Assembly: GCA_002329565.1 (NCBI GenBank)
Contig: DCTM01000061.1
Coordinates: 40,071 to 59,268, forward strand
Reading direction: 5' to 3'
Source: Firmicutes bacterium UBA1440
GTDB lineage: Bacteria > Bacillota > Clostridia > Peptostreptococcales > Anaerovoracaceae
Length of the DNA: 19,198 nucleotides
Every line of letters begins with the position of its first letter. The first letter of the stretch is position 1. Below are positions 4,867-9,218 of this stretch, in pieces. The notes beneath the pieces were generated by a model. That model ran no database searches. It had not been told where the DNA came from and worked only from the letters and a program-made list of their open reading frames with translations. A program made the translations under genes and the position numbers.

Positions 4867-5613
4867 CTATATTTCACAGACTTCGCCCAATACGTCACCG
4901 ATCTTATCGTGAATTACAATGTCTGCACTGCGATCGTAAGGAGTTTTGGATTTGTTGATCAAAACGACCTTATTGCCGCGGAAATAGTTGAGCAATCCCG
5001 CCGCCGGATATACGGCCAACGAGGTACCGCCGACAATCATCACATCCGCCCTGCGGATATCGTTGATTGCCTCTTGCATCACCTCGTCATTGAGCGGTTC
5101 TTCGTACAAGACGACATCCGGCTTGACCGTGCCGCCGCAGGCAGCGCAAACGGGAACGCCGTTTTTTTCTCCTCCGCATTTGCCCGGCTGCAGAATGTAA
5201 TCGAGATCATACGAGGCACCGCAACGCATGCAGTAATTGCGCATCACCGATCCGTGAAGCTCATGAACGCGCTTGCTGCCCGCCTTCTGATGCAAGCCGT
5301 CAATATTTTGCGTAATTACCGACAGCAGCTTCCCTTCATTCTCCAATTTTGCCAGTGCAAGGTGCGCTTTATTCGGCTGCGCCTCGGGGCAAACCAGATT
5401 TTCCTTATAGTATGCGAAAAAGGTCGCGGGATTTTGTTTAAAAAATGTATGCGACAGCAATACCTCGGGTGGGCTCCCATACGATTGCACCGCATTGTAC
5501 AATCCCGTCTCCGATCGAAAATCAAGCAGGCCGCTTTCTGTTGATACCCCTGCACCGCCAAAAAAAACAATTTTATCACTGTCTTTAATCAATTGTTTGA
5601 GTTCTTCATACAT
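4867..5613 (-). CDS. NAD-dependent protein deacylase, sirtuin (Sir2/CobB type)
   Basis: 248-residue sirtuin that removes acyl groups from lysines, consuming NAD and releasing nicotinamide and O-acyl-ADP-ribose. Motifs: GGAGVSTESG (19-28), DFRS (31-34), TQNIDGLHQKAG (101-112), catalytic His120 in ELHGS, a zinc site formed by Cys128, Cys131, Cys156 and Cys159, and GGTSLAVYPA (195-204). The cofactor loop reads SGLLDFRS where most sirtuins have SGIPDFRS, so the proline is replaced. Start: the frame is open 57 bases further up to 5670, but GGAGGGATTTTGT directly precedes ATG 5613, and the extra stretch contains the promoter, so 5613 is chosen. It is first in an operon with surE, the hydrolase and the DUF2156 gene. 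Confidence 0.95.
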   Translation of the reverse strand: MYEELKQLIKDSDKIVFFGGAGVSTESGLLDFRSETGLYNAVQSYGSPPEVLLSHTFFKQNPATFFAYYKENLVCPEAQPNKAHLALAKLENEGKLLSVITQNIDGLHQKAGSKRVHELHGSVMRNYCMRCGASYDLDYILQPGKCGGEKNGVPVCAACGGTVKPDVVLYEEPLNDEVMQEAINDIRRADVMIVGGTSLAVYPAAGLLNYFRGNKVVLINKSKTPYDRSADIVIHDKIGDVLGEVCEI

Positions 5614-5641
5614 ACAAAATCCCTCCTTTTCATATATACTC

Positions 5642-5670
5642 ATTATACTATACAAAAATGAAGTTTTCAT
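5642..5670 (-). promoter_or_regulatory. Promoter of the sirtuin-surE operon
   Basis: Minus strand: a perfect TATAAT (5642-5647), 17 bases from a weaker -35 candidate ATGAAA (5665-5670). The expected start is around 5635, about 20 bases before the sirtuin ATG. The -10 match is strong and the -35 only 4 of 6. The stretch 5614-5703 otherwise holds nothing coding. Confidence 0.45.
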
Positions 5671-5703: not shown

Positions 5704-6435
5704 TTATATTTCCGTCAGATGCTTGCGATAGCGCATCGGCATAAACATACGCTGACAACGCGGATTAGTGCGTTCTTTGATAGCGATATTTTCGAAGTAT
5801 TCTTTCCATAGCCTGCGATAGGCTATCTCACCGGCATCGTAACGCTGCTCTGTGGATTCTTGAAAAGCAGAGATGTACCAATGCCCGCCTCTTGCCACAA
5901 GAGCTTTCTCACGCCGCAAGTCGTGTATGATGAAAGGGTCGTTTCTATAGCGATCGGCAAAGTGGTTAGCCAACAGTTCGAGTATATCGTTGTCAGGTTC
6001 CGATTTTGCATAGAGTATGCCACCCTCCATGACGGAAAACCGCACCAAACCTTTTAGACGACACACTTCCTGCGTAACTTTCTTTTCAAGCAGCTCCGCA
6101 TTTCGCACGATAGGGTGCCCGTGGTAGGAAGAGACACTTTTGCCCTTTATAAAGCCAAGACGGATATAGTCGAGCAATTGCATCTCCTTTTGCTCGGCTT
6201 CGGCGAGGAATACGCGGTACACCCTGCGCAGATCGTAGAGAGAAATTTTATCCCGGATTGCCCGATAGACTGCCTCTGATTTTTCCGGATCCGTCTTGAT
6301 TTCTACACTGTCAAGAAAGCTGATTTGCTCGCAACGCGTTGAGGGTAAGATATTCGAGGCCTTTCCCAAGTAATAATGCGCATGCACGCAGCATAGGAAT
6401 CCTTCGAAAGTGGCATCATACATGTAGTTCGTCAT
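5704..6435 (-). CDS. TIGR03915-type DNA metabolism protein (partner of radical SAM repair protein)
   Basis: 243-residue protein of the conserved family that accompanies TIGR03916 radical SAM proteins. Family features are the start YDATFEGFLCCVHAHYY, the central KGLVRFSVMEGGILYAK with DNDILELLANHFADR, the segment IHDLRREKALVARGGHW, and the C-terminal block RTNPRCQRMFMPMRYRKHL. In other genomes this domain is often fused to a uracil-DNA glycosylase-like domain. Here it stands alone, since the frame ends directly after the block. ATG 6435 is preceded by GGGAGGCGGTT. It lies 20 bases inside the radical SAM gene, so the two are translationally coupled. A longer frame up to 6555 is merely the opposite reading of the upstream gene. 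The biochemical activity is unknown. Confidence 0.87.
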   Translation of the reverse strand: MTNYMYDATFEGFLCCVHAHYYLGKASNILPSTRCEQISFLDSVEIKTDPEKSEAVYRAIRDKISLYDLRRVYRVFLAEAEQKEMQLLDYIRLGFIKGKSVSSYHGHPIVRNAELLEKKVTQEVCRLKGLVRFSVMEGGILYAKSEPDNDILELLANHFADRYRNDPFIIHDLRREKALVARGGHWYISAFQESTEQRYDAGEIAYRRLWKEYFENIAIKERTNPRCQRMFMPMRYRKHLTEI

Positions 6436-7840
6436 AACCGCCTCCCAAAAGACTCTGTCCCGAATGGATAATCGACTGCGCACCGACAATTGTCTGGTCG
6501 AACAGAGAGAGTTGCTCACCGTCGCCGAGGCCAAGCAGATCGTTGCGAATCTCATCCGGTTTCATACTCTTAATACCGAAATATTTACCCGAACAGGTTA
6601 TAAAATATTTGGCACGCTTCATTACGACACCCATCTTCTTCAAATCATCGTACTTGATGCTCGCGACCCGCCGTTGGCGCACAATGCGCATTGCCGAAAC
6701 CGTGCCGACACCGGGAATTCTGAGAATATCCTCAAGCGGTGCCTTGTTGACCTCGATGGGGAAACGCGAAATATTGCGAAGCGCCCATGATACCTTCGGA
6801 TCGAGCGTCGGATCAAGGAAGGGATGATCTTCGTCAAACATTTCATCGGCAGTAAAACCATAAAAGCGCAGCAACCAATCGGCTTGATACAATCGATGTT
6901 CTCGTGCCAGAGGAGGCTGCACGGATCTGTCGGGCAACAGCGGTGAGTCGCTGATTGGAATATAGGCACTGAAATAAACGCGTTTCATTTTGAACATCCG
7001 GTAAAGGCTCTCTGACGTCTTGATAATCTGCATATCCGTTTCTCCTGCAGCTCCGATAATCATCTGCGTAGTCTGTCCCGCAGGTGCGAATTTCAATTTG
7101 CCCTTGCTCCTTCGCTGTGCCGGCAGCCTGCTCAGAGAGAGCGGCTCTCCGTCGGGCAAAAGATAGGCGTTGGATTCTTCTTTTAAATAATGTGCCGGAT
7201 TGTTTAAGTCCATACCTTCAAACATCGTACCCGGACCCTTGAGCGCGTTGCGCTCGATAAGAGTATTCGTAATCTGGCGCATGGGTGCAAAGATAGCATT
7301 AGGCTTCTTTTGCGGTGCCAAGAATCCTAGACTGCGCTCCGTTGGCAGCTCGATATTTACCGAAAGGCGGTCAGCCTCAAAGCCAATACTTTCAACCAAT
7401 TCCTTGTCGACTCCGGGAATTATCTTTGAGTGGATATATCCCCCAAAGCCATAGTCGTTGCGCAGGATACGAAGCGCCCGTAAAATCCTCTCAGCCGTAT
7501 GATTTGGCGAAACTTCGACCGCCGACGAGAGAAAGAGGCCTTCGATATAATTGCGGCGATAAAACTCCATCGTCAGCTTGGCTATTTCTTCGGGTTCAAA
7601 TGAGGCGCGCGGCACATCTGCACTGCGCCGGTTAACGCAATATTGACAGTCGTAGACGCAGTTGTTGGTAAACAGTACCTTCAGCAGCGAAATGCATCTC
7701 CCGTCAGCCGACCAGGAGTGACAGATTCCTGCGGCTACCGCATTGCCGAGTGTACCCGTGTTGCGCCTTTGACTCCCGCTTGATGAGCAAGAGACATCGT
7801 ACTTGGCACTCTCAGCGAGGATTTTCAGTTTTTCGTACAT
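6416..7840 (-). CDS. Radical SAM protein, putative DNA modification/repair type (TIGR03916)
   Basis: 474-residue radical SAM enzyme expected to bind a 4Fe-4S cluster and cleave S-adenosylmethionine. The cluster motif is NNCVYDCQYCVN (Cys61, Cys65, Cys68). Three more cysteines (18, 40, 49) sit in the family-typical leader with GICHSWSADGRCISLLK. Further family blocks are RRNYIEGLFLSSAVEVSPN, GYIHSKIIPG, APAGQTTQMIIGA and YQADWLLRFYGF. A helix-hairpin-helix DNA-binding segment (ILRIPGVGTVSAMRIVRQRR) lies at about 372-391, and QLSLF at 443-447 matches the sliding-clamp binding motif. The start ATG 7840 has GAGAGGTG nine bases upstream; an in-frame GTG at 7858 is less likely. It leads a two-gene operon from a promoter with two SOS boxes. 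The family is linked by genomic context to uracil-DNA glycosylases; its substrate is unknown. Confidence 0.92.
   Translation of the reverse strand: MYEKLKILAESAKYDVSCSSSGSQRRNTGTLGNAVAAGICHSWSADGRCISLLKVLFTNNCVYDCQYCVNRRSADVPRASFEPEEIAKLTMEFYRRNYIEGLFLSSAVEVSPNHTAERILRALRILRNDYGFGGYIHSKIIPGVDKELVESIGFEADRLSVNIELPTERSLGFLAPQKKPNAIFAPMRQITNTLIERNALKGPGTMFEGMDLNNPAHYLKEESNAYLLPDGEPLSLSRLPAQRRSKGKLKFAPAGQTTQMIIGAAGETDMQIIKTSESLYRMFKMKRVYFSAYIPISDSPLLPDRSVQPPLAREHRLYQADWLLRFYGFTADEMFDEDHPFLDPTLDPKVSWALRNISRFPIEVNKAPLEDILRIPGVGTVSAMRIVRQRRVASIKYDDLKKMGVVMKRAKYFITCSGKYFGIKSMKPDEIRNDLLGLGDGEQLSLFDQTIVGAQSIIHSGQSLLGGGYDELHV
6500..6514 (-). other. Sliding-clamp (DnaN) binding motif QLSLF in the radical SAM protein
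   Basis: Codons CAA CTC TCT CTG TTC encode Gln-Leu-Ser-Leu-Phe at residues 443-447, about 27 residues from the C-terminus and after the helix-hairpin-helix segment, in an apparently flexible Gly/Asp-rich context (GLGDGEQLSLFDQ). This is an exact match to the bacterial beta-clamp consensus QL(S/D)LF known from polymerases, MutS and Hda-type proteins. Function here is inferred from the match and its position. Confidence 0.6.
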
Positions 7841-7869
7841 ATCCTGCACACCTCTCACCGTCCTTTCTC

Positions 7870-7881
7870 GAACTTATGTTT
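7870..7881. promoter_or_regulatory. SOS (LexA) box 2
   Basis: GAACTTATGTTT fits GAAC-N4-GTTY and is preceded by C, as in the consensus CGAAC. Its centre is 29 bp from box 1. It covers the expected transcription start of the radical SAM operon, so a bound repressor would block initiation. Confidence 0.6.
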
Positions 7882-7883
7882 AT

Positions 7884-7912
7884 ATTATACCTTTTTGTGA
7901 ACATATGTTCAA
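7884..7912 (-). promoter_or_regulatory. Promoter of the radical SAM operon
   Basis: On the minus strand TTGAAC (7907-7912) is followed after exactly 17 bases by a perfect TATAAT (7884-7889), giving a start near 7877 and a leader of about 37 bases to ATG 7840. The -35 hexamer shares its GAAC with SOS box 1, and SOS box 2 lies at the start site, so the promoter is flanked by repressor sites on both sides. Confidence 0.75.
7899..7910. promoter_or_regulatory. SOS (LexA) box 1
   Basis: GAACATATGTTC is a perfect 12-bp palindrome matching the Gram-positive LexA/DinR operator core GAAC-N4-GTTC, with the spacer ATAT fitting the preferred RNRY pattern. It overlaps the -35 element of the radical SAM promoter and lies 21 bp upstream of the divergent patatin -35, which it should not block directly. 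Confidence 0.8.
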
Positions 7913-7931: not shown

Positions 7932-7960
7932 TTGTAAAATCAAGGGCGCTTTAGTACAAT
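7932..7960 (+). promoter_or_regulatory. Promoter of the patatin-like gene
   Basis: TTGTAA (7932-7937), a 17-base spacer and TACAAT (7955-7960) give an expected start near 7967, about 49 bases before the ATG at 8016. It is divergent from, and does not overlap, the radical SAM promoter. The 175-base intergenic stretch 7841-8015 is fully accounted for by the two promoters, the two SOS boxes and the leaders. Confidence 0.55.
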
Positions 7961-8015: not shown

Positions 8016-9218
8016 ATGAAAAGCAGAAGAACAGCTTTGGTGCTCTCGGGCGGCGGCTCTCGCGGGGCGTATCAGATCGGTGTATGGCAGGCACTTAACG
8101 AACTCGGCATTGAAATCGACGTTGCCTGCGGCACCTCGGTGGGCGCAATCAACAGCGCCATGATTGCGCAAAATTCTTTCGATCTCGCTGTCAACCTCTG
8201 GAAGACGATGGAAACGGAGATGATATTCGACGTCAGCATTGATGACAACTATAAGTTCCCGAAATTCGACTTCGCGGGTCTCAGTGCTGAGGAGGCTCTT
8301 GCTTATGCCAAGGAGATTATCGGCAATGGCGGCGCGGACGCCACAAATCTGAAAGAACTTTTAGAAAGATACATCGATGAAGAATTAATACGCAAGTCTC
8401 ATACCGCACTCTGCGTAACAACAGTCGAGCTGCCGTTTTTAAAAACACAAAGAAACTTCATTGAAGACATCCCGCAAGGGCAGCTCGTGGATTACCTGAT
8501 GGCGACCTCCGCTATCATACCGGCCATCAAACCTTATGAAATAGAAGGCAAGGTCTTTATTGACGGTGCCTGGGGCGATGGAATGCCCATCCGGGCGGCT
8601 CTCGACAGCGGAGCGACTGACATTATAGCCGTCGATCTTCGCAGCCCCGGCATCATTCACAAGAGCGACATCGAGCAAGCCAAGAAAACTACGCGATTTA
8701 AACTCATCTCACCGCTTCATAACCTCGGTAATATTATGTCCTTTGAGACCGAAAATACTGTTCGAAGCATACGCCTCGGTTACCTGGATACCATGAAAGC
8801 CTTCGGTGTCTTCAGAGGATATTACTGCACATTTGCCGCCGGTGCGATCCCCGTTGCCGATCTGAACGGTGCTGACGCAGCCGGCAACATATTCGAGCTT
8901 GATCCGGCAATCCTCTATACGTCCGATATATTCCACGACCTTTTGGTCGACAGAGTCATCAACGCCGTCAAAGATATACGGCCGAGCATTTCGACCAATC
9001 CTTTCGAAAGCATAGCCGACATTATAGCCGGAATTGCAAAGATTACAAGTCGAAAGTCTTTCACCGTTCACCTTGTTTATGCATTAAAAAAAGGCGACCG
9101 TGAAATCGCCTTGATGAAAACAAAACACGCTGCTAAGCTTTTCCGAGAGGAAATCGCCGCAGCGCGCTATATCGCGAAAATGCCGTTTTCCGACTTATTA
9201 TTTGAAACGGGAAAGTAG
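8016..9218 (+). CDS. Patatin-like phospholipase (RssA/YjjU-type)
   Basis: 400-residue serine acyl hydrolase with a catalytic Ser-Asp dyad. The oxyanion-hole motif SGGGSRGAYQIG is at 11-22, the nucleophile elbow GTSVG at 39-43 with Ser41, and the catalytic Asp183 in FIDGAWGDGMP. The patatin domain fills the first 230 or so residues. The C-terminal part includes FETENTVRSIRLGYLDTMKA, typical of bacterial patatin-like proteins. There is no signal peptide or membrane segment, so it is probably cytoplasmic or peripherally membrane-bound. The exact lipid substrate is unknown. ATG 8016 follows AAGGAG by seven bases; an upstream in-frame TTG at 7962 lies before the likely transcription start and is rejected. 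The last 21 bases overlap the convergent ECF gene. Confidence 0.93.
   Translation: MKSRRTALVLSGGGSRGAYQIGVWQALNELGIEIDVACGTSVGAINSAMIAQNSFDLAVNLWKTMETEMIFDVSIDDNYKFPKFDFAGLSAEEALAYAKEIIGNGGADATNLKELLERYIDEELIRKSHTALCVTTVELPFLKTQRNFIEDIPQGQLVDYLMATSAIIPAIKPYEIEGKVFIDGAWGDGMPIRAALDSGATDIIAVDLRSPGIIHKSDIEQAKKTTRFKLISPLHNLGNIMSFETENTVRSIRLGYLDTMKAFGVFRGYYCTFAAGAIPVADLNGADAAGNIFELDPAILYTSDIFHDLLVDRVINAVKDIRPSISTNPFESIADIIAGIAKITSRKSFTVHLVYALKKGDREIALMKTKHAAKLFREEIAAARYIAKMPFSDLLFETGK

Follow-up and report, generated by a model that had tools for sequence, protein, structure and literature searches.

The window analyzed here, a 19,198-nucleotide stretch of contig DCTM01000061.1 from Firmicutes bacterium UBA1440, carries on its minus strand a two-gene operon encoding a radical S-adenosylmethionine (SAM) protein and a partner protein, preceded by a promoter with two putative LexA operators. 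The radical SAM gene (6416-7858, starting at GTG 7858, GTG 7849, or ATG 7840) encodes a protein with a C-terminal helix-hairpin-helix that matched TIGR03916 in NCBIfam at 598.7 bits, against a cut-off of 343.5, and Radical_SAM in Pfam. The TIGR03915/DUF4130 partner, in the minus-strand frame at 5704-6555, scored 234.2 bits against the TIGR03915 cut-off of 112.25 in NCBIfam, from residue 44, and matched PF13566 in Pfam. Its likely start, ATG 6435, gives a 20-nucleotide overlap with the end of the radical SAM gene, which fits expectation for a coupled operon. With both proteins far over the curated cut-offs and their genes adjacent, the operon is the TIGR03916/TIGR03915 pair named in a preliminary description of this DNA.

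Reading of the minus strand also confirmed the promoter given there, TTGAAC-17-TATAAT, bracketed by two LexA-type sites. Its -35 hexamer TTGAAC lies at 7907-7912 and its -10 hexamer TATAAT at 7884-7889, 17 base pairs (bp) from the -35 and between the operators. Operator 1, GAACATATGTTC (7899-7910), is a perfect palindrome overlapping the -35, and operator 2, GAACTTATGTTT (7870-7881), covers the expected transcription start; neither is assigned to a strand. Both putative operators thus fall within 43 bp, around a good promoter for the TIGR03916 gene and its TIGR03915 partner.

SOS Regulon of the Source Genome

The source assembly comprises 1.48 Mb in 68 contigs and is 90.6% complete. A canonical LexA, whose absence would have told against SOS control, is encoded on contig 27 (TIGR00498, 227 bits against a cut-off of 110.95; S24 peptidase and LexA DNA-binding domains in Pfam). 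The pattern GAACN4GTTY, on either strand and hereafter the strict box, gave 65 rows across the genome, corresponding to 50 distinct sites, and was also found upstream of lexA, recA, ruvC, uvrB, and a small LysM gene. LexA, RecA, and RuvC were identified by Pfam, and ruvA- and ruvB-like frames behind ruvC by eye; for uvrB, cut short by the end of a contig, the identification was made by eye on the first 99 residues, in which Pfam gave helicase domains only. The lexA and recA genes share the operator GAACAAATGTTT, the core of which is identical to Clostridioides difficile operators. The preliminary description had also allowed for a different LexA consensus in this lineage; instead, the window operator matches those before the genome's own lexA, recA, ruvC, and uvrB, as members of a common predicted regulon.

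When the 50 sites were scored with a matrix built only from four C. difficile operators published in PMC4234289, window site 1 ranked first, followed by the sites of ruvC, recA, the LysM gene, and lexA, with window site 2 sixth. The uvrB site was 10th, with C9:1261 and two sites within reading frames between it and the top six. Outside these promoters there are 43 sites, of which 37 fall within reading frames; the rest (C9:1261, C39:2680, C48:4235, C35:6630, C64:33051, and C64:34860) are non-coding, frame-edge, or doubtful, and all score below the top six.

Two loci of the source genome were also noted. The LysM protein (L027:3002-3403, contig 61) has GAACAATTGTTC 93 bp upstream and is a candidate YneA-type inhibitor of division in the SOS response; we take it to resemble YneA. 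Contig 40 (3.3 kb) carries a Y-family polymerase gene, an SRAP gene, and LexA-N-like and XRE/S24-like open reading frames (L045); a one-mismatch box, GAACATTTGTTG, lies 70 bp upstream of the polymerase gene.

Conservation in Orthologous Promoters

Recurrence of the boxes in orthologous promoters, a check named in the preliminary description, was borne out by a promoter scan in three sets of loci. In the 80 loci of the genome collection most like the window gene, a set that is not a neutral sample, the strict box was present within 350 bp upstream in 67, while elsewhere in the same loci it occurred at 0.016 per 380 bp. Within the genome's own family, where 59 of 148 genomes encode TIGR03916 over the cut-off, all 30 promoters examined contained the box and 21 contained two or more (background 0.0125 per 360 bp); these are the best-scoring loci, including that of the window, and some are shared with the nearest 80. 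An even sample across the phylum yielded the gene over the cut-off in 65 of 299 genomes. The strict box occurred in 42 of 65 phylum-wide promoters (the window genome and one partial duplicate removed, one sub-cut-off match added), or in 45 of 65 if AAACN4GTTT is counted, against a background of 0.0033 per 380 bp in the 30 loci possessing flanks.

The arrangement of the boxes recurs as well. Two or more were found in 33 of the 80 nearest loci and a single one in 34. In the 33 twin-box loci the first two boxes are spaced either 25-34 bp (18 loci) or 46-63 bp (15 loci) apart, and between them all 33 have a hexamer that agrees with TATAAT at four or more of its six positions, an uncontrolled count in AT-rich stretches. 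As in the window, the first box itself provides the -35 TTGAAC in L046, L047, L050, L054, L058, L060, and L061. Twin operators placed around a promoter suggest its double occlusion, and the two preferred spacings are worth study with respect to the strength of LexA repression. That the same box arrangement is kept in many related bacteria supports a repair role for the pair.

Presence of the box also followed presence of LexA. All 15 box-bearing genomes tested encode LexA over the cut-off, and six of the 13 box-less loci among the nearest 80 are in genomes that do not: three Chlorobi genomes gave no LexA match, and L062, L067, and L070 gave sub-cut-off matches only. The association was significant by Fisher's test (p 0.0046 for strict boxes and 0.0002 with one-mismatch boxes) over 28 genomes that were not chosen at random, 15 having been picked from the 67 box-bearers and joined to all 13 others. 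A box also precedes 20 of 22 lexA genes inspected (17 strict, three AAACN4GTTT only), a survey that leaves out L206 and L207, which are below the LexA cut-off, and the second LexA-like genes L209 and L210, which are over it. In L063 and L201, a similar element, TTTGACAAACRAACA, is found in the lexA and TIGR03916 promoters of one genome, where the standard box is absent; this shared element may possibly reflect drift of the LexA operator.

Other Lineages and Evidence Against SOS Control

Beyond these sets, we examined 19 of the 158 plasmid-collection records containing a relative. In Alphaproteobacteria, GAACN7GAAC was upstream of the gene in 12 of 12 loci and absent from 67 kb of flanks; in Betaproteobacteria, CTGTATN4ATACAG was upstream in three of three loci, and 17 kb of flanks contained no CTGTN8ACAG. 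We take GAACN7GAAC and CTGTN8ACAG to be the LexA motifs of Alpha- and Betaproteobacteria, respectively. A Lachnospira locus carries GAACN4GTTY. In the four proteobacterial partners scanned, TIGR03915 is fused to a UdgX-type domain. Judged by motif, LexA-type control is not universal, and the proteobacterial promoters carry the local motif in place of GAACN4GTTY. With the target retained while the operator type differs from phylum to phylum, the operon offers a clean example of a regulon that is conserved as its motif turns over.

Several observations weigh against SOS control of the operon, as do the makeup of the nearest 80 loci and the selection of the 28 genomes described above. The bare count of GAACN4GTTY in the window was not significant (four rows against a mean of 1.34, with at least four in 19 of 200 shuffles) and was dropped as evidence for LexA control. 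The strict box was missing from 23 of the 65 phylum-wide promoters, or from 20 when AAACN4GTTT was allowed, counted regardless of LexA status. Among the 13 box-less loci of the nearest set, seven lie in LexA-bearing genomes. One-mismatch boxes are found upstream in four of these (L069, L078, L083, and L108), and in L063 and L103 the lexA gene of the same genome likewise lacks the known box; the L071 genome encodes a canonical LexA and has AAACN4GTTT before its lexA gene, but no box at the TIGR03916 promoter. No convincing box was seen at the Fusobacterium, Gemmatirosa, and Parabacteroides loci. The gene was over the cut-off in 33 of 118 Bacteroidota genomes, and CTAAN5TTAG occurred in only two of 30 promoters of that phylum (background 0.005 per 310 bp). 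GGAN5TCC likewise occurred in two of 30, about the background rate, GAACN4GTTY in none, and most of these promoters contained none of the motifs tried. On these counts, Bacteroidota were rejected as a further lineage.

The window count alone proves little; the case rests on the position of the sites and on how far their frequency in orthologous promoters exceeds the background. The same unremarkable count would be expected if the sites had arisen by chance, the pattern being short and degenerate and the promoter AT-rich, an explanation rendered barely credible by the conservation in orthologous promoters, the first rank of a window site among the sites of the genome, and covariation with LexA presence. 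The whole is best explained by a LexA-repressed SOS promoter driving a radical SAM/TIGR03915 DNA repair pair, to which we assign a probability of roughly 0.88. As to its parts, the operators and their setting make LexA control of the TIGR03916/TIGR03915 promoter highly probable, and the pair probably carries out DNA repair by radical chemistry. At the level of sequence, direct SOS control as first proposed is thus supported by the LexA of the genome, the operator of the lineage, and the orthologous boxes.

Predicted Mechanism and Function of the Pair

From the operators we infer that LexA binds and represses the operon promoter and that DNA damage induces it. In undamaged cells, LexA dimers would sit on both operators, at the -35 and at the start, and block RNA polymerase. 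Upon DNA damage, RecA filaments would trigger self-cleavage of LexA and both sites would be freed, whereupon the TIGR03916 enzyme and the coupled TIGR03915 protein would be made together. The radical SAM protein would hold DNA by its helix-hairpin-helix and, with a [4Fe-4S] cluster and S-adenosylmethionine, act on a damaged base or strand by radical chemistry. The pair is widespread, and the conserved LexA-bracketed promoter points to a need for it during DNA damage; the same promoter offers a ready assay in culturable Clostridia through mitomycin C induction and deletion sensitivity.

Features of both proteins bear on this scheme. The CX3CX2C cluster motif of TIGR03916 (C67, C71, and C74) is invariant in 47 sequences, and three further invariant N-terminal cysteines lie upstream of the radical SAM motif. 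This N-terminal triad possibly forms an auxiliary cluster, as in lipoyl synthase; the Gemmatirosa protein lacks it. In a sequence search of solved structures, residues 365-411 of TIGR03916 gave a weak match to the ComEA-related 2duy (E 0.0005), and TIGR03915 matched Csx28, also weakly (E 0.007). A DHH/RecJ relation of TIGR03915 was suggested by its fold, and profile comparison of five-sequence alignments gave it no support. No homology between the two partners was seen on comparison.

The preliminary description had linked the pair to repair through domains of uracil-DNA glycosylase (UDG), a link that does not apply here: the window partner has no UDG domain, matching TIGR03915 only in the NCBIfam scan. 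No UDG family was matched in any of 70 TIGR03915 partners scanned, three of them from Chlorobi, and the two UDG-superfamily genes of the source genome are both on other contigs. A clostridial operon without UDG implies that the radical SAM/TIGR03915 core is separable from uracil excision, and we infer that the pair acts on DNA, in Clostridia independently of UDG.

We know of no substrate for the pair, and the boxes could be real LexA sites serving an operon that is an SOS passenger, acting on a target other than a DNA lesion, such as RNA or nucleotide-pool modification. Against this stand the helix-hairpin-helix match, the fusion of TIGR03915 to UdgX in the proteobacterial partners, and the retention of SOS-type boxes across lineages with differing LexA motifs, and we consider a passenger role unlikely. 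A more far-reaching form of the repair interpretation makes TIGR03916 and TIGR03915 the heart of an SOS repair system in its own right, with new chemistry. The radical SAM enzyme, bearing two clusters, would work on damaged DNA directly and in concert with a DNA-binding partner that is RecJ/Cdc45-like and catalytically degenerate, UDG being an add-on elsewhere. We put this forward only tentatively, as it is doubtful; if true, with UDG an add-on in other lineages, the published uracil-excision interpretation would miss the main function of the operon.

Relation to Known Systems

We take COG4277 to be the TIGR03916 family. On that assumption, the earlier statement that genomic association is the main tie of the pair to repair is outdated: passages of PMC8565304 describe a UDG base excision repair operon, COG1573-COG4277, that has LexA motifs in Bacteroidetes, and cite Verrucomicrobia and Alphaproteobacteria as well. 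Compared with the operon as described in those passages, ours is likewise a LexA-controlled two-gene operon, its control predicted from sequence, but the clostridial version has TIGR03915 alone with no UDG domain, uses a different operator, and has two or more boxes in 33 of 80 loci. As a related UDG operon under SOS control has already been published for other phyla, the clostridial LexA-type control is an extension of a known case with a twist, not a new kind.

The nearest regulon is that of C. difficile, in which binding of LexA to operators was tested by surface plasmon resonance (PMC4234289). In what that source gives of the regulon, the box GAACN4GTTY and the cores at lexA and recA are the same as in our genome and ruvC and uvrB are common to both, but its Table 1 names no radical SAM gene. 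A term search in the available text of a second C. difficile LexA paper (PMC4689574) gave no match. Among the literature matches listed, in which subscription journals are thinly covered, none describes this operon in Clostridia as a LexA target; no paper in the literature searched refers to TIGR03916 by name, and COG4277 and DUF4130 each appear in one.

Passages of PMC3765255, which deals with SOS gene neighborhoods, link DUF4130 to UDGs and to SplB-like radical SAM proteins and predict it to be a mutagenesis-related enzyme. The domain is the same as in the window partner, but those passages contain no LexA operator for DUF4130. SplB, the spore photoproduct lyase, is itself SOS-regulated in several species according to a passage of PMC8565304, and a radical SAM gene appears in the LexA table of Streptomyces venezuelae (PMC9380542). 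Unlike SplB, a radical SAM DNA repair enzyme, the window protein matches TIGR03916 only; the NCBIfam scan at E 0.001 gave no SplB match. NCBIfam presumably includes a SplB model.

Neighboring Genes

Divergent from the operon, on the plus strand, lies a patatin-like phospholipase gene (8016-9218; sub-cut-off patatin-family matches), which probably does not belong to the system. The two genes share one intergenic region and the boxes are palindromic or nearly so, hence directionless, such that the operators could serve the patatin-like gene, or both genes, with the radical SAM operon a bystander. However, the boxes overlap the minus-strand promoter, and the plus-strand gene appears to have a promoter of its own, TTGTAA-17-TACAAT (7932-7960), read from the letters as clear of the LexA boxes and beginning 22 bp past the nearer one. 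A relative of the patatin gene stands beside the operon in only four of the 80 loci, and the box is kept in 40 of the 48 loci where the nearest upstream reading frame, mechanically called, runs in the same direction. The boxes track the radical SAM gene, not the neighbor, and service to the divergent gene is very improbable. The next gene after the operon, immediately downstream and in the same orientation, encodes a Sir2-type NAD-dependent protein deacylase (4867-5670).
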